From NCBI GenBank assembly GCA_903881585.1, contig CAIRTW010000273.1:1-60991 (forward strand): a stretch of DNA of 60,991 nucleotides, read 5' to 3'. Under the pieces are notes generated by a model, which did no database searches, had not been told where the DNA came from, and was given only the letters and a program-made list of their open reading frames with translations. A program made the translations under genes and the position numbers. Of the stretch, positions 10,351 to 51,230 are shown piece after piece (position 1 is the stretch's first letter; each line of letters starts with the position of its first letter). This DNA comes from an uncultured Bacteroidota bacterium. GTDB lineage: Bacteria; Bacteroidota; Bacteroidia; Chitinophagales; Chitinophagaceae.

Positions 10351-12171
10351 CTACTCCACAAAATACATTTTCATCACCCCCTTATTTTTCGCGTCGATCT
10401 CGCCGCGGTAGCTGCAATGAAACTCGTCTTTTACGAGTTCGTAGGTTGTCTGTGAAATGTTGATCCTGCCCGGTTCACTTTTTTCTTCCATACGGGCCGC
10501 AGTGTTCACGGTATCGCCCCAGATATCATAAGCGAATTTGATGACGCCCACTATACCTGCTACCACGTTTCCGCTATGTATGCCTATACGCACTTCAAAA
10601 GTTCTTTCGCCCATTTTCTTTTTCCGCTCCGCCATAAAATTGGCAATTTCTCTCGCCGCATTTACCATTGCAGTCGCATGTTTCGGATTAGCGATTGGCA
10701 GGCCCGAGGTGGCGAGATAGGCATCGCCCACCGTCTTTATTTTTTCGATTTTATTTTTCCGTATGATCTCGTCAAAAGCCTTGAAGCAGGTGTGCAGCTC
10801 ATCTACCAGCTGCTGTGGTGTCATGTTTTCAGCGGCTTTTGTGAAGCCTACAAAATCGGTGAACATTACCGTTACATTCTCAAAATATTTTGCAGCTGCT
10901 GTACCTGTTTCCTTTAATTCCTCGGCTACTCCCGCTGGCAATATGTTTAGCAGCAGGTCGTCACTTCTTTTCTTTTCGCCCGAAAGCAACTTATTTGATC
11001 TTTTCTGAAGATTGTAATTCCGTAGCACAAACAATATTACAAGCAGCAGCAGTGCAATGCCGGCAATGAAAAATATGCGCTCATTATGCTTTTGGGCAAG
11101 CTCCAGGTTTTTCAGGTCTTGTTCCCGTTTCCGCTCCAGCTCTATTATTTTTATCTTGTTCGCGCTCCCGAAAACCGAGTCGTGCATAGTAACGTATTGC
11201 TGGTAGCTTTCCAATGCACCGATATAGTCACCGGTCATTTTCTGCACTTCAGAAAGATTGAGCGAATAAGTTTGTAAATAATCCAGGTCGCCTATTTCTT
11301 TGGCTAAGGCAACAGCTCTGCTCAGATACTCCAGCGCTTTATTCAGTTTCTCTTTTTTTTCATTGGCAGTCTGTGCAACAATGGTATCCCGCGCCATGGC
11401 AAGATAACAAGCGCCAATATTTCCCACATTTGCGATCAGGTCATTTTTATCACCGAGCTCTTCAAATATTTTGATCGCCCTCAGGCCATACTCCAATGCT
11501 TTCGGATAATTGTGCAGGCTGGTATAGGAACTGCTGATGTTGCCGAGATCGGATGCAATGCCATGCCTGTCGTTTAATTCTTCGCAGAGCTTCAGCGCTC
11601 TCATACTATATTCCAGGTTCTTGGCGTAGTTATTCAGGTTATTATAGGTGTTGCCAATGTTTCCCAACGTGATGGCCAGGCCGTCCTTTGCACCAAGTTC
11701 CTCGAATATTTTTTGCGCCCTTGAATAGTAGTCGAGGGCTGATGTATAATTTTCCTGGTTGTTGTATATGTTGGCAATATTCCCATAGTTTCCTGCAATA
11801 CTTTTTTTGTCTCCCAGCTCCTCATTTAGCTTTAAAGACTTCAGGGCATAATCCAGGGCCTTTGGATAGTCTGAGCGCGACATATAATTTACGCCCAGCA
11901 TCCCGTAGGCTGTTGCTATGCCTTTTTTCCATTCGAGTTTGTCGGCCAGGGCCAGGGCAGACTCTCCGTACAATATTCCGTGAGCGGGATCTATGTTTAC
12001 ATAAGCATAACACAGTGCATTGCGCAGTTTTACATTGTTCGTGTCCTCTTTTCCATTTGGCAGTTCTTTGATCAGTGAGTCTATCAACGGTTGCCCATGC
12101 AGGCGTGCGGCGCAGGGCAGTGCACAGAATACACATAGTGATAAGATGACCCACTTTATACGCATCGCCAT
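10351..12171 (-). CDS. TPR-containing membrane adenylate cyclase, copy 1
   Basis: A class III nucleotidyl cyclase behind a sensor-like region. Order: signal peptide (WVILSLCVFCALPCAARLHG); about six TPR repeats with the pattern YPKALDYALKSLKLNEELGD; a linker; one membrane helix (IFFIAGIALLLLVILFVL); the helical linker KRSDDLLLNILPAGVAEEL; and the catalytic domain. Metal-binding Asp residues are in MFTDFVGFTK and TVGDAYLA. The adenine-selecting Lys (KIKTVGDAY) and Asp (YDIWGDTVN) and the transition-state Asn/Arg (NTAARM) are all present, which favours ATP and cAMP over GTP. The TPRs would lie in the periplasm and might bind a protein partner. I prefer the ATG at 12171; another lies at 12165. 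The paralogue follows upstream with 32 bp between them, so they may share a transcript. Confidence 0.9.
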   Translation of the reverse strand: MAMRIKWVILSLCVFCALPCAARLHGQPLIDSLIKELPNGKEDTNNVKLRNALCYAYVNIDPAHGILYGESALALADKLEWKKGIATAYGMLGVNYMSRSDYPKALDYALKSLKLNEELGDKKSIAGNYGNIANIYNNQENYTSALDYYSRAQKIFEELGAKDGLAITLGNIGNTYNNLNNYAKNLEYSMRALKLCEELNDRHGIASDLGNISSSYTSLHNYPKALEYGLRAIKIFEELGDKNDLIANVGNIGACYLAMARDTIVAQTANEKKEKLNKALEYLSRAVALAKEIGDLDYLQTYSLNLSEVQKMTGDYIGALESYQQYVTMHDSVFGSANKIKIIELERKREQDLKNLELAQKHNERIFFIAGIALLLLVILFVLRNYNLQKRSNKLLSGEKKRSDDLLLNILPAGVAEELKETGTAAAKYFENVTVMFTDFVGFTKAAENMTPQQLVDELHTCFKAFDEIIRKNKIEKIKTVGDAYLATSGLPIANPKHATAMVNAAREIANFMAERKKKMGERTFEVRIGIHSGNVVAGIVGVIKFAYDIWGDTVNTAARMEEKSEPGRINISQTTYELVKDEFHCSYRGEIDAKNKGVMKMYFVE

Positions 12172-12203
12172 GCTCTTGTTATAATACAATTTACGACATT
12201 ATT

Positions 12204-14030
12204 TCAGCTGGCAAAATACATTTTCAGAACACCTTTGTTCTTTGCTCCGATCTCACCGCGGTAAACACAGCTGAACTCGTCTTTAACTAATTCATAGGTG
12301 GTCTGCGATATATTCACTTTCCCGGCCTCACCATGCTCTTCCATGCGCGCGGCGGTATTTACAGTGTCGCCCCATATGTCGTACGCAAATTTTATCGCGC
12401 CAACAATACCGGCCACTACATTACCACTATGTATGCCGATACGAACTTCAAAAGTATTGCTTCCCAGGCGTTGTTTCCGTTCCTTCATGAAAGCCGATAT
12501 CTCCAGTGCGGCATCCACCATTGTAGCCGCATGTTCAGGGTCAGCTATCGGCAAGCCGGAAACAGCAAGGTAAGCATCGCCCACAGTTTTTATTTTTTCA
12601 ATGTTGTGGCTACGGATGATGTCATCAAAGGCTACGAAGCAGGCGTGCAGTTCATCAACCAGTTGCTGCGGACTCATTTTTTCCCCGGCTTTTGTAAAGT
12701 CAACAAAGTCGGTGAACATAACTGTTACATTATCAAAATACTTAGCCGCGGCAGCGCCTGTTTCTTTCAGTTCCTCTGCTACTTCGGCCGGCAGTATATT
12801 GAGCAGCAGATCATCAGAACGCTTCTTTTCTTTCGTGAGCAGCTGGTTGTTTTTTTTCTGGATGTTGGAATTGCGCAGCACAATGATGATCACCAGCAAC
12901 AGTAGCGCTATGCCAGCTATCAGGAACACTTTTTCATTCTTATTCTTTGCCACTGCCAGCTGCGCCAGTTTCAGGTCCCGGTCCTTAAGCTCCAGGTCGT
13001 GCTGGTGTTCGGTTTGTTTTATCCTGAAGTCATTCGCAGATGAATAGACAGAATCATTCATTGTGCTGTACTGCCTATAGCTTGCCAGAGCCTCTTTATA
13101 GTTGCCCGCCAGCAGGTAGGCATCTGAAAGGTATTGGCTGAACTCAATGATATTATCCAGCTGTTTTATCTTCCGGCTGGCTTCTATTGCATTGGTCAGA
13201 TAGTTTATTGCCAGCCTCAGTGTCTCGGTTTTACTGCTGCGCGATTTACTTCCTGTATCCTTTGCTATTGCCAGGTAAGCCTCTCCGGTATTGCCCATGG
13301 CTATTGCCGTGCTGTATTTATCGCCTTGCTCTTCAAAGGCTTTCAATGCCTTAGAATCATATTCCAGTGCTTTTTTGTAATCTTTTTTGTGCATATAGGC
13401 ATCTCCTATATTGCACATCTGGATAGCTATTCCATTATGGTTACCGATCTCTTCTGATATTTTTAGCGCTCTCAGATCGTATTCTATTGCTTTATCATAG
13501 TCTCCTTGCGAAAAATAGAAAATGCCCAGGTTGGAAAGGTTGGATGACAATCCATCCTTATCCCCGTTCTGCTCAAATATCTTTAGCGCATTGAGGTTGT
13601 ACTCCAGGGCCTTAGGGTAGTTCTTTTCATATTGATATACTGTGGCAATGCTTCTCAGGCTATTGGCCATGCCGCGTTTGTCGCCGGTCTCTTCAAATTT
13701 TTTCAGGGCCTTAAGGTCATAGTCAAAAGCGTTGGGATAATCTGATTTGTACTGGTAATTATTGCCGATGGTGCTATATCCAAGTGCAATACCCTTTCCC
13801 CACTTTATGTCGTTGGCCAGTGCCAGTGCCTGCAAACCATAGCTGATCCCGCTATCCGGATTGATGATCCGGTAATCAGATGAGATATCGTGCAGTATCC
13901 GCACACGTTCGGTATCACTTTTTTCAGAGAGAACGGCTTTGATCAGGGAGTCAATTTCCTCCTGCCCCCGCTTTTGTGCGTGCAGCCGGATAGATATTAG
14001 TAAGAGTAAAAATCCGATCAGTCTTCTCAA
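12204..14030 (-). CDS. TPR-containing membrane adenylate cyclase, copy 2
   Basis: Same architecture as its neighbour: signal peptide (LIGFLLLLISIRLHAQ), TPR repeats (YPKALEYNLNALKIFEQNGD), one membrane helix (VFLIAGIALLLLVIIIVLRN), linker KRSDDLLLNILPAEVAEEL and a class III cyclase domain. Catalytic Asp residues (MFTDFVDFTKA, TVGDAYLAVSG), adenine-pocket Lys and Asp (KIKTVGDAY, YDIWGDTVN) and NTAARM are intact. The cyclase halves of the two copies are nearly identical while the TPR halves differ more, as expected if a duplicated enzyme now responds to different inputs. The frame opens with TTG at 14030; no ATG precedes the signal peptide. The gene is upstream of copy 1 on the same strand. Confidence 0.9.
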   Translation of the reverse strand: MRRLIGFLLLLISIRLHAQKRGQEEIDSLIKAVLSEKSDTERVRILHDISSDYRIINPDSGISYGLQALALANDIKWGKGIALGYSTIGNNYQYKSDYPNAFDYDLKALKKFEETGDKRGMANSLRSIATVYQYEKNYPKALEYNLNALKIFEQNGDKDGLSSNLSNLGIFYFSQGDYDKAIEYDLRALKISEEIGNHNGIAIQMCNIGDAYMHKKDYKKALEYDSKALKAFEEQGDKYSTAIAMGNTGEAYLAIAKDTGSKSRSSKTETLRLAINYLTNAIEASRKIKQLDNIIEFSQYLSDAYLLAGNYKEALASYRQYSTMNDSVYSSANDFRIKQTEHQHDLELKDRDLKLAQLAVAKNKNEKVFLIAGIALLLLVIIIVLRNSNIQKKNNQLLTKEKKRSDDLLLNILPAEVAEELKETGAAAAKYFDNVTVMFTDFVDFTKAGEKMSPQQLVDELHACFVAFDDIIRSHNIEKIKTVGDAYLAVSGLPIADPEHAATMVDAALEISAFMKERKQRLGSNTFEVRIGIHSGNVVAGIVGAIKFAYDIWGDTVNTAARMEEHGEAGKVNISQTTYELVKDEFSCVYRGEIGAKNKGVLKMYFAS

Positions 14031-17151: not shown

Positions 17152-17805
17152 TTAAGCCAGTAATGTATTTAGATCGATCTCTGCTATGCTAACCTCCATT
17201 TTCTTGTCTGTAGCAATGCATGCCGCATATCCTTCTTTAATAACCACATCTTGCAGATACCACCGCACACCACCTGATATAACCGTATCCTCGCAAACAT
17301 CAATTTCATTCAGCGGCTGAAAGATCCCTTTGCCTATGGCCTTTATGCAGGCTTCTTTTCTCACCCACGTTCTGCAAAATTCGGCATTCATATTTTCACT
17401 GCTGGTAATTCTATCCCATTCCTGCCCGCTAAAGTAGTCGCGCATACCCAGTATATCCCGTTCTTCTTCTTTTTCTATATCCACACCTATATGAGCGCCC
17501 TGACCACCTGCACAAAAAACGACACTGCCCGAATGGGACAAATTATAGTCAAAATTAGTATTTGCAAAATAAGGCTTTCCCCAGCTATTAACCCCTTGTG
17601 CATCTGCAAATAAACTGTGCTCCAGGTTATGGGCGGCCAATAACCTATAAAGCAATAATTTGCCAGCTATCTTCCGGTATTGCTGTATAGATGGGTCACT
17701 GGCGAATGTTTTTTCTTTGCTGATACTGTTGACAGCAGCCAGTAGCCTCTTGTGTATCTCCTCGTCCTGTATGCCGCCAATATCTGTAAAATAACCCGTT
17801 ATCAT
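17152..17805 (-). CDS. 4'-phosphopantetheinyl transferase (Sfp type)
   Basis: Enzyme that attaches the phosphopantetheine arm of coenzyme A to a serine in acyl or peptidyl carrier proteins. The 217 residues show the family motifs: NYNLSHSG-like NFDYNLSHSGSVVFCA, the Mg-binding HIGVDIEKEEER, and the helix FCRTWVRKEACIKAIGKG with the W-x3-KEA signature. Sfp-type enzymes are broad and typically serve NRPS/PKS systems. The NRPS-like gene with a carrier domain starts 321 bp away on the opposite strand, which makes it the likely client. AcpP could be an additional substrate. Confidence 0.92.
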   Translation of the reverse strand: MITGYFTDIGGIQDEEIHKRLLAAVNSISKEKTFASDPSIQQYRKIAGKLLLYRLLAAHNLEHSLFADAQGVNSWGKPYFANTNFDYNLSHSGSVVFCAGGQGAHIGVDIEKEEERDILGMRDYFSGQEWDRITSSENMNAEFCRTWVRKEACIKAIGKGIFQPLNEIDVCEDTVISGGVRWYLQDVVIKEGYAACIATDKKMEVSIAEIDLNTLLA

Positions 17806-17893
17806 GCCGCGATAAAATAACTAAAATAACTGGAGACCTGAATTTATTTTCTCCGATTTTAGCGACAAAGGTAGAATAGATACCATATTCACC

Positions 17894-17920
17894 AAGAGAC
17901 GTTGCACTGCAACGTCTCTT
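17894..17920. repeat. REP-type palindrome (remote copy)
   Basis: AAGAGACGTTGCA at 17894-17906, one central C, then the exact complement at 17908-17920. This is the palindrome family found around and inside the transposase gene at 50264-51004, here about 32 kb away in the gap between the phosphopantetheinyl transferase and NRPS-like genes. The rest of the 17806-18125 gap shows no gene. Confidence 0.85.
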
Positions 17921-18125
17921 GCATATCAAAAACCGATAACAAAGTAAATGCCTGCATGGCGGCAAGATTAATGTGCCGGTATCATCATCAAATTTTCCTT
18001 ACAAATATCTAAGGCATGAATTTCGTATGGATTCTTACCCGTATGGGAAAGAAAATATTTCAGGAGGATTATAATTGTTGTAATTTTCGCTTAAATAAAA
18101 ACAAAGCATCCCGGCAGCAGTAAAT

Positions 18126-21100
18126 ATGAATCCCAGCATTGTACTTGGAGTTTCCCGCCCCGACTTTTTGCATGAAGAAACACTTGCAGACATCTTTCGG
18201 ATGTCCGCAAAGAATTTCTCAGGGAATACCGCGCTCATTTTCGGAGATAAGTCAGTTACTTATGCCGAACTGGACCGCTGGAGCGATGCCATGGCCGATC
18301 ACTTGTACCAGAATGGTATTATGCCCGGCGACCCCGTTGGCCTGTGGTGGCCGCGTGGCCTGGAGTTGCATGTAGCCATATTGGGTATTGTAAAAGCAGG
18401 CGCATCCTACGTGCCGCTGGACCGTGAAATGCCTGCCGAGCGCGTAGAGACGGTGCTCACAGAAGTAGGTGCAAAGGGATATATCAGCCAGGATAAGCTT
18501 GCCATTGACTGCCCGATGTTCTCAGTGGTACCGCAGCCAGGAAAGGTTGCTGTAATACCCATTACTCTGGGGGCGAAGCCAGATAACTGGGCTTATGTAT
18601 TATATACATCAGGCAGCACAGGCAAGCCTAAAGGCATACCTATAGCACATAGGCAGATATGCCATTTTGTGCGTGCAGAGCAGTCTGTGCTCGAAGTGCG
18701 CAGTACCGACCGGGTTTACCAGGGCTTTTCTGTGTCTTTCGATATGTGGTGCGAGGAAGTATGGATAAGCTACTTCGCCGGCGCCACATTATGGGTAGCC
18801 GATGCCACAACTGCAAAATCTATAGATGAGCTTGCCGATATATTGCGGCAGCAACATATTACGGTGCTGCATGCTGTGCCCAGCCTGCTGGCAGTTATGG
18901 AAGATGATATTTCATCCGCCCTGCGAATTGTAAATGCCGGGGGCGAGGCTTGTACCACACAGGTGCTTTCGAGATGGTCTATTCCCTCCCGCAGGTTTTA
19001 CAACAGTTACGGACCTACGGAAACTACCGTAACCGCTACGCTGATAGCGCTGAAGCCGGGCGACCCGATAACGATAGGCATACCGCTGCCCAATTATAAC
19101 CTGGCCGTTGTTGATGAAAAACTAAACATATTGCCTATGGGCGAGCGGGGTGAGCTGGTAGTAACAGGGCCCGGTCTATCCAGAGGATACATAAATCTGC
19201 CCGAGCTAACAGCACAAAAATTTGTGCCAAAGCCTGATGCATTGTCTGCCTTGCCGGGTGATGTAATGTACAAGACCGGTGATGCCGCCGTCATTAATCC
19301 AGATGGCAGTATTGACTTCCAGGGACGCTTTGATGACCAGGTGAAACTGCGCGGCTATCGCATTGAGCTTGGAGAAATAGAAAATCAGTTAAGCAATCTT
19401 ACAGATATAACTGCGGCGGCAGTAGCCGTAAAAAAAGACGCAAATGGACAAGACCACCTCGCAGGCTATATAGTGTGCGATGATCCGGTGACCATGAACC
19501 AGCAGCATATACGCGAGGAGCTGGCAAAGGTGCTGCCCGCATACATGATACCCAGCGTCATCATGCAGCTCTCCGAAATGCCGCGCCTGCCCAGCGGCAA
19601 AATAAACAGGAAGGCGCTCCCCATACCAGCCATGCTGCTGGAAAATGCCGGCGCTATTACCAACGAAGTAATAGATCTGGATGCGCCCATAGAAGAGCGG
19701 GTAGTCGCTGCATTGCGCAAATTTTTCCCTAACCGCAACATTGATCTTTCACAGGATTTCTTTACAGACCTTGGCGGTCACTCCCTGTTGGCCGCAGCCT
19801 TTGTATCAAAGCTACGGCGTGAGGCGGGCATACCCCAGGCCGCACTGAAGGACATATATCTTATCCGCCCGCTCAATAAGCTGGTGGAATACTGGCAGTC
19901 GAAACCCGCGGCGGAGATGAAGGCCAAGCGTGTCTTTAATGAAGTGCCCAAGAGGCGGTTTTTACTTTGCGGTATCGCACAGACCTTTTCCCTGCTGATG
20001 GTGTATGGCCTTTTTGCGGTGCAGATATTTTTTCCCTACTTAGGTTACTACTATGTTGCGGAGGAGACAAAGAATACACCTTATGCGGTAACCACTGCAT
20101 TATGCCTGTTTTGCCTCATTCCACCATTGTTTGCGGCATTCACTATAGGCGTCAAGTGGCTGGTGATCGGCAAGATGAAGGAAGGTGATTATCCGCTATG
20201 GGGCAGTTATTATTTCAGGTGGTGGTTTGTGAAGACCATGCAGCGGCTGCTGCCCGCTCAGTTTCTGAATGGCACCCCTTTGTACCCAGGCTACCTGAGC
20301 CGTATGGGCGTAAAAGTGGCCAAGGACGCGCAACTGGGCGCTGTGACCATAGGTGCAGAAGACCTCGTAACCATAGGCGAAGACGTAAGCATCAGCTCCC
20401 GCGTCACCATCAATAATGCCTATGTAGAAGATGGTATGCTGAAACTGCGGCGCGTAACCCTGGGCGATCATGCCTATATAGGCAGTGGCGCAATACTGGG
20501 CGGCGGCGCTACAGTAGAAGCTTGGGGCGAGCTGCAGGATCTTAGCTACCTGCAGGAAGGTAAGACCATTGCCAGTGGCGAGGTTTGGCAGGGGAGTCCC
20601 GCAGCGCTTAAAGAAAAGAAAGCAATAGAAGACCTGCCACAGCCGCTGTTTGTATCAGCTGCACGGCGGAGAAAGTATTCGCTGATTTTCACTTTGTCGC
20701 TCCTTATTTTTCCGTTCGTTATCCTGTTGCCGCTGTTGCCCACCATTATCATTATCCACAACATAGATAATTCCACACCCGACTACGACTTTAGTTACCT
20801 GGTCATTACGCCATCGCTGGCGCTGAGCTACATCATTGTCTTTGCCGTTGTTACAGTTATCCTTACGCGCCTGCTGCAATGGGGCATAAAGCCCGGCAAG
20901 TACCCCATCTACAGCATGTTCTACGTGCGCAAGTGGTTTGCAGACCAGCTCATGTCTTTGTCGCTCATCGTGCTGCACCCCATTTATGCCACGGTATATA
21001 TATCCCTGTTGTTCCGTGCGCTGGGCGCCAAGGTGGGCAAGAATACCGAGATATCTACCGCCAGCAGTGTTACGCATCCGTTGCTTACCATAGGCAAGGG

Positions 21101-22067
21101 TGCATTTGTGGCCGATGCGGTGACGCTGGGCGAATCGGACGTACGCGGCCAGCAGCTCATCCTCGATAACACCGTTATAGGCAATAACAGCTTTGTAGGC
21201 AACAGTGCGCTGATACCACAAGGCTATCAGCTGCCGGGCCGTATGCTCATAGGCGTGCTGTCCGTACCGCCTAGTAAGGAACAACTGGAAGGTGAGACCG
21301 CCAAAGATTGGTTCGGCTCTCCGTCCATTGCATTGCCACGACGCCAGGCCAGCCGCACATTTGCTACTGAGCTTACAGCAAGGCCTTCGGCTACAAGGGT
21401 GCTTGCGCGCAGTGTAGTAGAGTTCATCCGCATACTCATACCCGAAACAGTGATCCTTATATGTAGCATCCTGTTCATCGCCTATGCACATGATCTGCTG
21501 GTAGCAGCGCCGTGGTGGATGATCATCATACAGCTTCCTTTCTATTACCTGTTTTTCATGGGCTTGCCGGCATTTATTGTAACTGCCGCGCTGAAGTGGC
21601 TCACCATAGGCATCTACAAGCCCGACCAAAAACCCATGTGGACCTCCAAAGTATGGCGCAGTGAAGCCATCACCTCCACCTACGAAGCGCTGTCCGTGCC
21701 ATTCCTCCTCGACTTCATGCGGGGTACACCATGGCTACCCCTGATACTGCGTGTACTGGGCCTGAAAACAGGTAAGCGCGTATGGATGAACACCACCGAT
21801 GTTACCGAGTATGACATGGTGCACATAGGCGATGACACCGCCCTCAACGAAGACTGCGGCCCGCAGACCCACCTCTTCGAAGACCGCGTAATGAAAGTAG
21901 GTCCTATAAAAATAGGCAAGCGCTGCAGCATAGGCGCCGGCACCATCATCCTCTACGACAGCGAAATAGGTGATAATGTAAACGTAGATCCCCTCTCACT
22001 CGTAATGAAAGGCGAAAATCTGCAACCCAACTCCAGCTGGGGCGGCAGCCCGGTGCGGCCGGCGTAA
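18126..22067 (+). CDS. Pls-like membrane NRPS: adenylation, carrier, six TM helices, three LbH domains
   Basis: A 1313-residue single-module synthetase. An adenylation domain fills about 20-505: A3 YTSGSTGKPKG near 160, A5 NSYGPTETT near 295, A7 YKTGD near 381, A8 GRFDDQVKLRGYRIELGE near 400, A10 LPSGKINRKALP near 490. A carrier domain has the phosphopantetheine Ser in DLGGHSLLAA near 552. Then come helix pairs at about 615-690, 852-920 and 1105-1160, each followed by a hexapeptide left-handed beta-helix domain (LGDHAYIGSGAILGGG; LDNTVIGNNSFVGNSAL; IGKRCSIGAGTIILYDS). This is the layout and nearly the length of Streptomyces poly-epsilon-lysine synthetase Pls, whose three tandem soluble domains catalyse polymer elongation. 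There is no condensation or thioesterase domain. The pocket region reads FDMWCEEVW; I do not predict the amino acid. The divergent phosphopantetheinyl transferase is the likely activator. Confidence 0.9.
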   Translation: MNPSIVLGVSRPDFLHEETLADIFRMSAKNFSGNTALIFGDKSVTYAELDRWSDAMADHLYQNGIMPGDPVGLWWPRGLELHVAILGIVKAGASYVPLDREMPAERVETVLTEVGAKGYISQDKLAIDCPMFSVVPQPGKVAVIPITLGAKPDNWAYVLYTSGSTGKPKGIPIAHRQICHFVRAEQSVLEVRSTDRVYQGFSVSFDMWCEEVWISYFAGATLWVADATTAKSIDELADILRQQHITVLHAVPSLLAVMEDDISSALRIVNAGGEACTTQVLSRWSIPSRRFYNSYGPTETTVTATLIALKPGDPITIGIPLPNYNLAVVDEKLNILPMGERGELVVTGPGLSRGYINLPELTAQKFVPKPDALSALPGDVMYKTGDAAVINPDGSIDFQGRFDDQVKLRGYRIELGEIENQLSNLTDITAAAVAVKKDANGQDHLAGYIVCDDPVTMNQQHIREELAKVLPAYMIPSVIMQLSEMPRLPSGKINRKALPIPAMLLENAGAITNEVIDLDAPIEERVVAALRKFFPNRNIDLSQDFFTDLGGHSLLAAAFVSKLRREAGIPQAALKDIYLIRPLNKLVEYWQSKPAAEMKAKRVFNEVPKRRFLLCGIAQTFSLLMVYGLFAVQIFFPYLGYYYVAEETKNTPYAVTTALCLFCLIPPLFAAFTIGVKWLVIGKMKEGDYPLWGSYYFRWWFVKTMQRLLPAQFLNGTPLYPGYLSRMGVKVAKDAQLGAVTIGAEDLVTIGEDVSISSRVTINNAYVEDGMLKLRRVTLGDHAYIGSGAILGGGATVEAWGELQDLSYLQEGKTIASGEVWQGSPAALKEKKAIEDLPQPLFVSAARRRKYSLIFTLSLLIFPFVILLPLLPTIIIIHNIDNSTPDYDFSYLVITPSLALSYIIVFAVVTVILTRLLQWGIKPGKYPIYSMFYVRKWFADQLMSLSLIVLHPIYATVYISLLFRALGAKVGKNTEISTASSVTHPLLTIGKGAFVADAVTLGESDVRGQQLILDNTVIGNNSFVGNSALIPQGYQLPGRMLIGVLSVPPSKEQLEGETAKDWFGSPSIALPRRQASRTFATELTARPSATRVLARSVVEFIRILIPETVILICSILFIAYAHDLLVAAPWWMIIIQLPFYYLFFMGLPAFIVTAALKWLTIGIYKPDQKPMWTSKVWRSEAITSTYEALSVPFLLDFMRGTPWLPLILRVLGLKTGKRVWMNTTDVTEYDMVHIGDDTALNEDCGPQTHLFEDRVMKVGPIKIGKRCSIGAGTIILYDSEIGDNVNVDPLSLVMKGENLQPNSSWGGSPVRPA

Positions 22068-22823: not shown

Positions 22824-23162
22824 CTATAAACCGTTTTCTGAAATAACAATAACTTTCCGGCCTTCGATGTTATTCAAAACAGCTAAGACATTTGGCATTA
22901 ACGCTGTTAAACTCCGCAACGTATTCCGGAATACATCCAGTACAACGATAGTACAAGGAAGAAGTGATACATTTTGTTGGTACGGAAGGTTTTTATCAAC
23001 GATTAGCCAGCAATCGAACTTGTGCTCCTGTAACAGTTTCAACAATGCACCATTTTTAACTCCATTCCACTTCATTTCCCTGACTGTAAAGACCTCATGA
23101 GTTCCCGCCGGAAAAGCGCTTTTGAAACGAATGTCGATATTTTCGTCCAGCAAGATCTTCAT
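22824..23162 (-). CDS. DUF5615 PIN-like putative toxin
   Basis: 112 residues of the DUF5615 family, related to the Mut7-C/PIN-like nuclease fold. The start MKILLDENIDIRF is the family hallmark (LLDENL), followed by VFTVREMKWNGVKNGALLKLLQE and WLIVDKNLPYQQN, which carry the acidic residues thought to bind metal. Such genes form pairs with DUF433 proteins and are proposed as VapBC-like toxin-antitoxin modules. The ATG overlaps the stop of the DUF433 gene by 4 bp (ATGA), so the two are translationally coupled. Confidence 0.85.
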   Translation of the reverse strand: MKILLDENIDIRFKSAFPAGTHEVFTVREMKWNGVKNGALLKLLQEHKFDCWLIVDKNLPYQQNVSLLPCTIVVLDVFRNTLRSLTALMPNVLAVLNNIEGRKVIVISENGL

Positions 23163-24992: not shown

Positions 24993-25337
24993 TTACTCAC
25001 TACCGCTACTCATCAATTGCCGGACTTCTTCAATTAACAGCGGAATATCTTTTACAACTGCTTTCCATATTATCGTATCATCCACCGCATCGTAAGCATG
25101 TATCACGCGGTTACGCAGGTTTACTATTTTTCGGCCATGTGAAAGAGAAATGCCCGGATTTGATTTCAATAAGTTATTTGTTGCTTCGCCTATTATTTCC
25201 AGTTCTCTTTCCACAGCGCGGCGCTTGGTAATATTCGTTGCAAATTCTTCCCAATTTCTGCGCCCTTCAAGGTGTATATCTATATTTAATGCGTCCTGTT
25301 CTATATCGTTAAATAATTTCTTTTCCTCCTCCATCAT
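24993..25337 (-). CDS. hepT: HepT-family HEPN toxin (DUF86)
   Basis: 114 residues, the RNase-like toxin of the MntA/HepT module. The HEPN motif R-x4-H-x-Y is present as RNRVIHAYDAVDD; the Tyr is the residue modified by the partner in studied systems. Surrounding family signs are FATNITKRRAVERELEIIGEA and VDDTIIWKAVVKDIP. The ATG overlaps the mntA stop by 4 bp, giving translational coupling. In characterised pairs HepT cleaves tRNA or mRNA and is silenced by AMPylation. Confidence 0.93.
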   Translation of the reverse strand: MMEEEKKLFNDIEQDALNIDIHLEGRRNWEEFATNITKRRAVERELEIIGEATNNLLKSNPGISLSHGRKIVNLRNRVIHAYDAVDDTIIWKAVVKDIPLLIEEVRQLMSSGSE

Positions 25338-25636
25338 ATCAGTTGCAATTTGTGCCGGTTAATATTTTCGACGAGGTAAGGATTTTTTAAAGTTTTTTCC
25401 GTCACAAGGTCAACACTTTTCTTTAGCAGTGCTTCGAGTGCATCCGCCAGCGCGAAGTAGTTATCAGCATAACTCACATAGTTCATTGTTTCAGGAAACT
25501 TTATGATGAAATCAATATCACTGTCCGGGGTCATAGTGCCCTTAGCTGCGCTGCCAAACAGGTAAGCACGCTCTACTCCATACTCCAGCATGAGTTTTTT
25601 TATTTGCGGCAGGTTCTGCTCCACAACTTTTTCCAT
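25334..25636 (-). CDS. mntA: MntA-family nucleotidyltransferase antitoxin
   Basis: 100-residue minimal nucleotidyltransferase. The GS-x10-D-x-D active site is complete (LFGSAAKGTMTPDSDIDF), as is a later Asp in VDLVTEKTLKNPYL. In characterised systems MntA attaches AMP units to the HEPN toxin and neutralises it. First gene of the two-gene module. An intact active site suggests a working antitoxin. Confidence 0.93.
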   Translation of the reverse strand: MEKVVEQNLPQIKKLMLEYGVERAYLFGSAAKGTMTPDSDIDFIIKFPETMNYVSYADNYFALADALEALLKKSVDLVTEKTLKNPYLVENINRHKLQLI

Positions 25637-50185: not shown

Positions 50186-50246
50186 CGTTGCACTGCAACG
50201 TCTAACATAGAACACAAGTAGAGACGTTGCACTGCAAAGTCTCTAC
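50186..50246. repeat. REP palindromes 5' of the transposase gene
   Basis: Two copies: a short core CGTTGCACTGCAACG at 50186-50200, and a longer one at 50218-50246 beginning GTAGAGACGTTGCA and ending CTCTAC with one mismatch. They lie between maeB and the transposase gene, 18 bp before its ATG. Confidence 0.85.
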
Positions 50247-50263
50247 TTGAAAAACAAAAAAGC

Positions 50264-51004
50264 ATGTCACTATTCAAACATCAGTATAGGATCGAATCCG
50301 CCCGTTTGCAAAATTGGGATTACAGATGGAATGCTGCCTATTTCATCACTATATGCACATTGAATAAAGAACATTTCTTTGGGGAAATTGTTCCTGTCAA
50401 ATCACTGCGCCGAACAGGTGCCGCTCATCCCGAGGGAGACGTTGCAGTGCAACGTCTCTACGTAAATCCAAATGTGGGTGAAGAATACAAAATGAAACTT
50501 TCCGGAATAGGGGAAATAGCCTGGGATTGTTGGATAAAAATACCAACTCATTTTCCTTTTACAATATTAGATGCATTTACCGTAATGCCCAATCATATAC
50601 ACGGCATTCTCATCATTAACAATTCAGTGGTAGAGACGTTGCACCGCAACGTCTCCAATGCACAACCGAGTTCTCCCGACGAGCAATGCAATGAGTCCGA
50701 TTCCCGGCAGAGCATTATTGCAAAGTCAGATATTCCAACTAGATCAGCTGATAAAAGTAATCAGGAAACCAGGGTTAAAAATGAAGTAATGGCAGCAATG
50801 TCACCTAAGAAAGGGTCCCTTTCTGCTATAATGCGTTCTTATAAGTCCGCCGTAACAAAACAGGCCCATTTTATCAACCCTGGATTTGGATGGCAGGAAC
50901 GTTTTCATGATCATATAATAAGGACAGAAGAAGAGTTTAAGAAAATTCAAAATTACATTATCACCAATGCACAAAACTGGAAAGAGGATATGTTAAATAG
51001 TTAA
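50264..51004 (+). CDS. REP-associated tyrosine transposase (RAYT, Y1 family)
   Basis: 246 residues. Single-strand DNA transposase of the IS200-like Y1 superfamily that is domesticated with REP palindromes. The HUH motif is FTVMPNHIHGILII, and the catalytic Tyr is in KKIQNYIITNAQNW; other family marks are DYRWNAAYFITICTLNKEHF and GFGWQERFHDHII. In the coding frame lie two REP palindromes: 50436-50458, read as GDVAVQRLY, and 50633-50655, read as VETLHRNVS. Both sit in surface-loop positions of the fold and keep the frame. The flanks hold two copies upstream and a four-copy array downstream. The gene appears complete and possibly active. Confidence 0.92.
   Translation: MSLFKHQYRIESARLQNWDYRWNAAYFITICTLNKEHFFGEIVPVKSLRRTGAAHPEGDVAVQRLYVNPNVGEEYKMKLSGIGEIAWDCWIKIPTHFPFTILDAFTVMPNHIHGILIINNSVVETLHRNVSNAQPSSPDEQCNESDSRQSIIAKSDIPTRSADKSNQETRVKNEVMAAMSPKKGSLSAIMRSYKSAVTKQAHFINPGFGWQERFHDHIIRTEEEFKKIQNYIITNAQNWKEDMLNS
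50436..50458. repeat. REP palindrome inside the transposase gene, first copy
   Basis: GAGACGTTGCA, central G, TGCAACGTCTC: a perfect match to the palindrome consensus within the coding frame. Confidence 0.9.
50633..50655. repeat. REP palindrome inside the transposase gene, second copy
   Basis: GAGACGTTGC, then ACC, then GCAACGTCTC, in frame, just after the HUH motif region. Confidence 0.9.
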
Positions 51005-51040
51005 TAGCCTCGGATGCCAGGAATTATTATGCGAGGTTTA

Positions 51041-51230
51041 GTAGAGACGTTGCAGTGCAACGTCTCTTACACGATACATAAATACAAAGCGCCAGTAGAG
51101 ATATTGCACTGCAACGTCTCTTACACTATACATAAATACAAAGCACCAGTAGAGACTTTGCATTGCAACGTCTTATACACGATAAATAATACAAAACACC
51201 CGTAGAGACGTTGCACTGCAACGTCTAACG
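51041..51230. repeat. Tandem array of four REP palindromes, period 54 bp
   Basis: Copies start at 51041, 51095, 51149 and 51202. Each begins GTAGAGACGTTGCA (copy 2 has GAGATATTGCA, copy 3 GAGACTTTGCA) and is followed by a related spacer such as ACGATACATAAATACAAAGC. Palindrome plus spacer is the repeat unit, 54, 54 and 53 bp. The array runs from 37 bp after the transposase stop codon to 55 bp before the DUF1275 gene. Confidence 0.92.

Follow-up and report, generated by a model that had tools for sequence, protein, structure and literature searches.

The question raised by this locus is what the 1313-residue protein encoded by an intact frame at 18126–22067 on the plus strand of the 60,991-nucleotide stretch of DNA that we analysed (the window) is likely to synthesize, and which part of it would form the bonds. 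According to the original prediction, the protein is a poly(amino acid) synthetase of the Pls kind, encoded by a Bacteroidota bacterium, in which adenylation and carrier domains precede three pairs of membrane helices, each leading into a beta-helix domain. This domain order was borne out. Pfam placed AMP-binding at residues 24–355, AMP-binding_C at 417–492 and PP-binding at 535–569, together with a Hexapep match. Using PF00501, PF13193 and an alignment to PosA (8G97), the adenylation domain was delimited as residues 24–498 (18195–19619, plus strand), and the carrier (thiolation) domain occupies residues 520–600 (19683–19925, plus strand), with its phosphopantetheine serine, S553, in the DLGGHSLL motif of the PP-binding domain. 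Three hydrophobic helix pairs (approximately residues 609–682, 845–922 and 1089–1163) were visible as model helices and as hydropathy peaks, with a lesser extra peak at 944–963, and in the AlphaFold model (pLDDT 85.1, pTM 0.86) a beta-helix follows each pair. Pfam at E 0.001 detected no condensation or thioesterase domain in the synthetase; a sub-threshold LbH match was seen.

The protein is a member of the Pls/PosA family. Residues 618–1310 match the NCBIfam model of the Pls/PosA terminal domain (TIGR02353, NRPS_term_dom) along its full length (profile 2–695 of 695) at 657 bits, relative to a cut-off of 423.1 bits, and this is the single copy over cut-off in the window genome. Across 147 genomes of the same taxonomic family the best match below cut-off reached 46.7 bits, and such sub-cut-off matches were taken to be ordinary hexapeptide proteins. 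As the match is full length and lies far above this hexapeptide background, a mere likeness of hexapeptide repeats, which was one of the outcomes named beforehand as fatal to the Pls-like assignment, is ruled out. We also rejected an ordinary NRPS or a DltA-type ligase, as among the best 25 of 116 NCBIfam matches only TIGR02353 and generic amino acid adenylation pass.

With regard to the substrate, the original prediction had singled out a pocket motif, FDMWCEEVW, and had offered no prediction of the amino acid. The motif is present, with D206, M207 and E210 at code positions 1, 2 and 3, but the amino acid can now be predicted. From a one-gap alignment to PosA 8G97, in which 81 of 163 columns around the pocket are identical, we read D206, M207, E210, H249, N270, G272, S294, V302, T303 and K492 (DMEHNGSVTK), the last of these being assigned via its SGK motif. 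The PosA report gives that pocket as DMEHNGTVSK, and describes Asp217 and Glu221 as essential, Thr304 and Ser313 as assisting by contacting the terminal amine, chain length as being set by Met218, and pocket position 2 as Ala in lysine-type and Phe in diaminopropionate and diaminobutyrate types (PMC10522769). Eight of the ten positions are identical between the two pockets, whilst the remaining two are a Thr/Ser and a Ser/Thr exchange in which the hydroxyls are kept. Each feature of a PosA-type pocket (Asp217, Met218, Glu221 and hydroxyls at 304 and 313) therefore has its counterpart (D206, M207, E210, S294 and T303), and where a Pls-type pocket would have Ala the synthetase has Met207. Read in this way, the pocket makes L-ornithine the most likely substrate. 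Pls, which had been named as the relative, remains one in family, domain order and size, but among characterised enzymes it is PosA that has the closest pocket.

As a control, the same reading returned DMEHNGTVSK for the Acinetobacter row of the alignment, as published, and DAESIGTVVK, with the lysine-type Ala, for four actinobacterial rows. Four further rows had a DFE pocket, one of which adjoins genes for diaminobutyrate transaminase and aspartate kinase. Counting the window, there were 87 distinct rows from Bacteroidota, of which 83 have the code DMEHNG[ST]V[ST]K, two have one further change and two have DAESIG. Code conservation is biased, however, in the 80 loci that came from a contig search, because the search patterns cover D-M-E. 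Sixteen rows were fetched without this filter, from 12 of the 24 over-cut-off family genomes and from four phylum-sample carriers of other families; these gave 13 full codes, among which L115 and L120 duplicate sequences already in the set, as well as one DMEHKG and two DAESIG. The lysine-type pocket DAESIG occurs in the synthetases L111 (G529) and L123 (G069), which come from the family or class to which the window belongs, and this suggests that lysine-type enzymes are also present in Bacteroidota; the L123 frame is 1538 residues long and has additional N-terminal sequence before the adenylation domain. Separately, a Kitasatospora lysine-type synthetase (L110) is followed by a gene for an M1 metallopeptidase, possibly a polymer-degrading partner.

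The strongest competing explanation keeps the enzyme class and changes the homopolymer, the monomer being L-lysine, 2,4-diaminobutyrate or some further cationic amino acid. PosA itself is described as modestly active with lysine and of low activity with diaminobutyrate, and an odd-pocket Bdellovibrionales homologue as active with arginine in place of the diamino acids. Overall identity of the adenylation domain also fails to single out PosA: the Acinetobacter PosA row shares 45.2 % and four lysine-pocket rows share 36–38 %, but rows with a DLED pocket share 45.2 % (Azospirillum) and 46.0 % (Rhizobium). As the DLED rows are as near as PosA, it is the pocket that carries the ornithine call, and such codes are degenerate. 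Nevertheless, Met at position 2 is as in PosA, rather than the Ala or Phe of the other types, and the hydroxyl pair that touches the delta-amine is retained, so that another monomer appears unlikely. Furthermore, ornithine is a primary metabolite, and thus the absence of adjoining supply genes fits with ornithine as the substrate.

The C-terminal half comprises three repeats on the plus strand, each consisting of a transmembrane pair and a left-handed beta-helix (LbetaH): C1 (residues 612–842, 19959–20651), C2 (residues 845–1079, 20658–21362) and C3 (residues 1080–1313, 21363–22064). Aligned with one another by hhalign (C1–C3, E = 1.4e-39; C2–C3, E = 1.4e-22), the three are homologous acyltransferase folds. 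As comparison of an 809-residue model mainly tested the carrier domain, C3 was folded alone, and gave an LbetaH acetyltransferase fold. H1249 of C3 (codon 21870–21872) aligns with His115 of LacA, and a histidine is kept there in 98 of 98 ungapped rows. At the equivalent positions histidine occurs in one of 99 rows for C1 and in 22 of 99 for C2, the latter all from one subclade. In the synthetase itself these positions are taken by A765 in C1 (placed by hhalign and the model) and by S1004 in C2 (placed by the C2–C3 alignment, at a position that is variable in relatives). As a point against a C3-only site, C1, despite having no such histidine, scores slightly above C3 in global-mode alignment to LacA (97.6 % versus 96.6 % probability), with C2 weakest; the subclade with a histidine in C2 is a second such point. 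That the histidine is invariably kept at C3 only suggests a single active site, in the third repeat, for which the candidate residue set is H1249, E1180, E1228, Q1247, D1253 and E1297. Rows of the Pls type and of the PosA type have the polar residues of C3 in common, and hence the acceptor chemistry is probably shared. The proposed residue set offers a specific mutational handle on the isopeptide-bond site across the Pls/PosA family. Kito is said to have performed mutational work on the tandem domains of Pls in 2013, which may already cover the C3 histidine. In a PDB search with the C-terminal region, none of the best 60 of 71 matches was named as a poly(amino acid) synthetase, these being hexapeptide-type proteins with a top score of 35.2 bits. 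The polymerisation domain is described in the PosA report as being without structural information (PMC10522769).

An Sfp-type gene had been predicted to lie divergently some 321 bp away. It is there, at 17152–17805 on the minus strand, separated from the synthetase by 320 bp, and encodes an intact 217 aa 4′-phosphopantetheinyl transferase of the ACPS superfamily (PF01648, 56.5 bits, cut-off 25). Sfp-type transferases are defined by GxD and WxxKExxxK motifs, and the protein carries GVDI and WVRKEACIK; no NCBIfam transferase model was over cut-off among the best 25 of 116 matches listed. Three ACPS-superfamily genes exist in the window genome, including this divergent neighbour, which from its family and motifs is the probable activator of the carrier. 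Conserved linkage of the two genes, which had been put forward as a check on the prediction, did not emerge. A profile built from the window transferase and its relatives was applied to 108 loci, the window not among them, and in only 31 did it detect a transferase close to the synthetase (12 loci were plasmid references, of which two were positive). Three arrangements occurred: 15 divergent upstream, 13 convergent downstream and three downstream on the same strand. A further 57 loci had no transferase although 2 kb or more was visible on either side, and 20 loci had too little flank. In several near relatives a SpoU methylase gene adjoins the synthetase with no transferase between. A transferase homologue was present somewhere in 12 of 14 tested genomes, all picked as synthetase carriers. 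As linkage is confined to 31 of the 108 loci and takes three forms, the notion of a fixed pair was dropped; the pairing is convenient but exchangeable.

Bacteroidota promoters have a consensus of their own, and a pattern scan with it picked out TTG-N19-TACCTTTG (17866–17895, minus strand), a promoter-like site preceding the transferase gene, as a consensus match only; the same pattern had no counterpart on the plus strand. Between the two genes there is also a perfect 25-bp palindrome with 12-bp arms and a 1-base centre, AGAGACGTTGCA-N-TGCAACGTCTCT (17895–17919, no strand assigned). Eight copies are present in the window at three or fewer mismatches, as opposed to zero expected, seven of which lie at 50220–51228 around an ORF without a Pfam match, the last four spaced by 53–54 bp. 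Its core has ten exact copies in the genome. The element looks like a dispersed palindromic repeat and, because it recurs, a role as an operon-specific operator was rejected. Further features of the window include two tandem TPR proteins at 10351–14030 (a guanylate/adenylate cyclase domain was identified in the one that was scanned, and the other looks similar in sequence); a small DUF5615 protein downstream of the synthetase at 22824–23162, a weak match slightly over cut-off; and, at 24993–25636, a HepT-like ribonuclease gene adjoining a small nucleotidyltransferase gene, an arrangement that we take to be that of an MntA-HepT-type toxin–antitoxin pair.

Retention of the synthetase is near-universal in the genus and patchy outside it. 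With the window genome counted in each case, it was found in 28 of 31 genus genomes (20 of the 21 of good quality), where relatives are of intact length, in 24 of 147 family genomes (TIGR02353 over cut-off) and in six of 395 phylum genomes (protein search, E 1e-40). In a tree of the adenylation domain, built on 38 of the 101 rows, 24 Bacteroidota rows form one clade (support 100/99) that joins Acinetobacter PosA, Azospirillum and Rhizobium (97/98); a quick version of the C-terminal tree, on the same number of rows, agrees with it. The DLED-pocket rows sit with PosA, and two lysine-type Bacteroidota rows fall outside the main Bacteroidota clade. Bacteroidota contain a well-conserved clade that is probably of PosA type.

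Near-universal presence in one genus argues for a routine biological role and against a rare antibiotic. A structural or physiological function of this kind would also suit an ornithine conjugate, with no homopolymer being made, in which the acyltransferase hands ornithine to a lipid, a polyamine or a cell-surface amine, and so would the fact that the catalytic domain is membrane bound. However, the characterised members named in the published work consulted make homopolymers, with PosA yielding 7–12 units in vitro, and the C3 polar residues are those of Pls-type and PosA-type enzymes alike; a conjugate is accordingly an improbable product. A relic gene, whether decayed or inactive, is scarcely credible, given the intact frame, the presence of the pocket, carrier serine and conserved C-terminal residues, and the intact-length relatives in the genus.

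A gene for a GNAT acetyltransferase lies directly downstream of the synthetase, on the same strand, in 24 of the 108 loci (median gap 33 bp). Both of the GNATs scanned contain PF00583 and neither is over any NCBIfam cut-off, whilst the one searched against the PDB had no match at E 0.001. In the window genome the GNAT is a 41 % identical copy (C46:7242–7709) that is unlinked to the synthetase. The GNAT was present in 28 of 31 genus genomes (26 of the 31 having both genes) and in 13 of 14 tested synthetase carriers, four of which were already known to have it linked. Seven of the nine GNAT-bearing genomes among the 147 of the family also contain the synthetase (Fisher p = 3.9e-5, a value that ignores shared ancestry and derives from a query that is itself a synthetase-linked gene). 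Both of the GNAT-bearing genomes among the 395 of the phylum sample are synthetase carriers: one is the window genome, and in the other the linkage was already known. Conversely, the GNAT is absent from 17 of the 24 synthetase-bearing family genomes and from four of the six phylum-sample carriers, and two family genomes have it without the synthetase. Within the genus, the 99 % complete G097 lacks the synthetase and keeps the GNAT. GNAT genes also follow Sphingomonas and Phyllobacterium synthetases, and are at best remotely related to the partner described here. The probable role of the GNAT is N-acetylation of the polymer, either to cap it or for self-protection, which makes it a concrete lead to how such polymers are tolerated or completed by the cells that produce them.

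Taken together, we consider it likely that the gene encodes a membrane-bound synthetase of the PosA type, which without ribosomes would join L-ornithine into a short cationic homopoly(amino acid), delta-linked poly-L-ornithine, with its active site in C3, activation by an Sfp-type transferase and probable acetylation by a GNAT. Phosphopantetheine would be loaded onto S553 by an Sfp-type transferase, for which the divergent neighbour is the simplest candidate; the adenylation domain, as its PosA-aligned pocket indicates, would pick and activate L-ornithine, and the carrier would hold this as a thioester. The C-terminal region, whose three LacA-like repeats, left-handed beta-helix acyltransferases in fold and carried by six membrane helices, probably make up an internal pseudo-trimer, would then transfer the carrier-bound ornithinyl group to the side-chain amine of the growing chain, giving delta-linked poly-L-ornithine. 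On the evidence of alignment and conservation, the sole full catalytic set appears to be that of C3, with H1249 as the probable general base. Finally, the GNAT, adjacent in many relatives and unlinked here, could acetylate the product. A family-wide version of this scheme is more tentative, and on balance we would not yet expect it to hold in full: that the polymerising half is a fused LacA-like pseudo-trimer from which the acetyl-CoA tryptophan and two of the three active sites have disappeared, leaving a single C3 site (H1249, E1180, E1228, Q1247 and D1253) for which a carrier-bound amino acid is the donor; that delta-poly-L-ornithine is a genus-wide core product; and that the GNAT is dedicated to acetylating the polymer.

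Genes of this kind in Bacteroidota are not new, as a non-alpha poly-amino acid (NAPAA) cluster without known match was called by antiSMASH in Hymenobacter psoromatis PAMC26554, with no product given (PMC11925752). The NAPAA class is also reported in a deadwood study, in a passage that does not name the phyla (PMC11613949), and none of five terms looked for occurs in the main text of a survey of Bacteroidetes natural products (PMC9248904). Among the titles and abstract openings listed in literature searches, none dealt with a PosA-type enzyme from Bacteroidota, with a GNAT partner or with a C3 histidine, and none gave a product or activity for any Bacteroidota member; Supplementary Table 2 of the PosA report may list Bacteroidota members. 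With the ornithine prediction, an enzyme formerly without a predicted substrate becomes a testable ornithine polymerase.

Amongst known systems, the closest by pocket is PosA, the delta-poly-L-ornithine synthetase of Acinetobacter baumannii (PDB 8G95–8G98; PMC10522769), which is the best PDB match around the pocket and shares the architecture and the C-terminal family. PosA belongs to a host of a different phylum, identity to it is 45.2 % in the adenylation domain and 36.9 % in the C-terminal region, and, unlike for the transferase-flanked synthetase of the window, neither a transferase nor a GNAT is annotated in the 12.1-kb stretch that represents the PosA-like row L100. Pls, the epsilon-poly-L-lysine synthetase of Streptomyces (adenylation domain PDB 7WEW), has in common with it the domain order, size, TIGR02353 and an adenylation-domain match, but lysine-type rows read DAESIG..K where the window synthetase reads DMEHNG..K. 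The fold of the C-terminal repeats is that of LacA, maltose O-acetyltransferases and other left-handed beta-helix acetyltransferases. Also among the Foldseek matches to the model was the N-acyltransferase LpxD, a beta-helix acyltransferase that uses a carrier-bound acyl donor, as proposed for the C terminus of the synthetase. LpxD uses a separate carrier, is a soluble homotrimer and transfers an acyl chain, whereas the synthetase, as proposed here, would transfer an amino acid.
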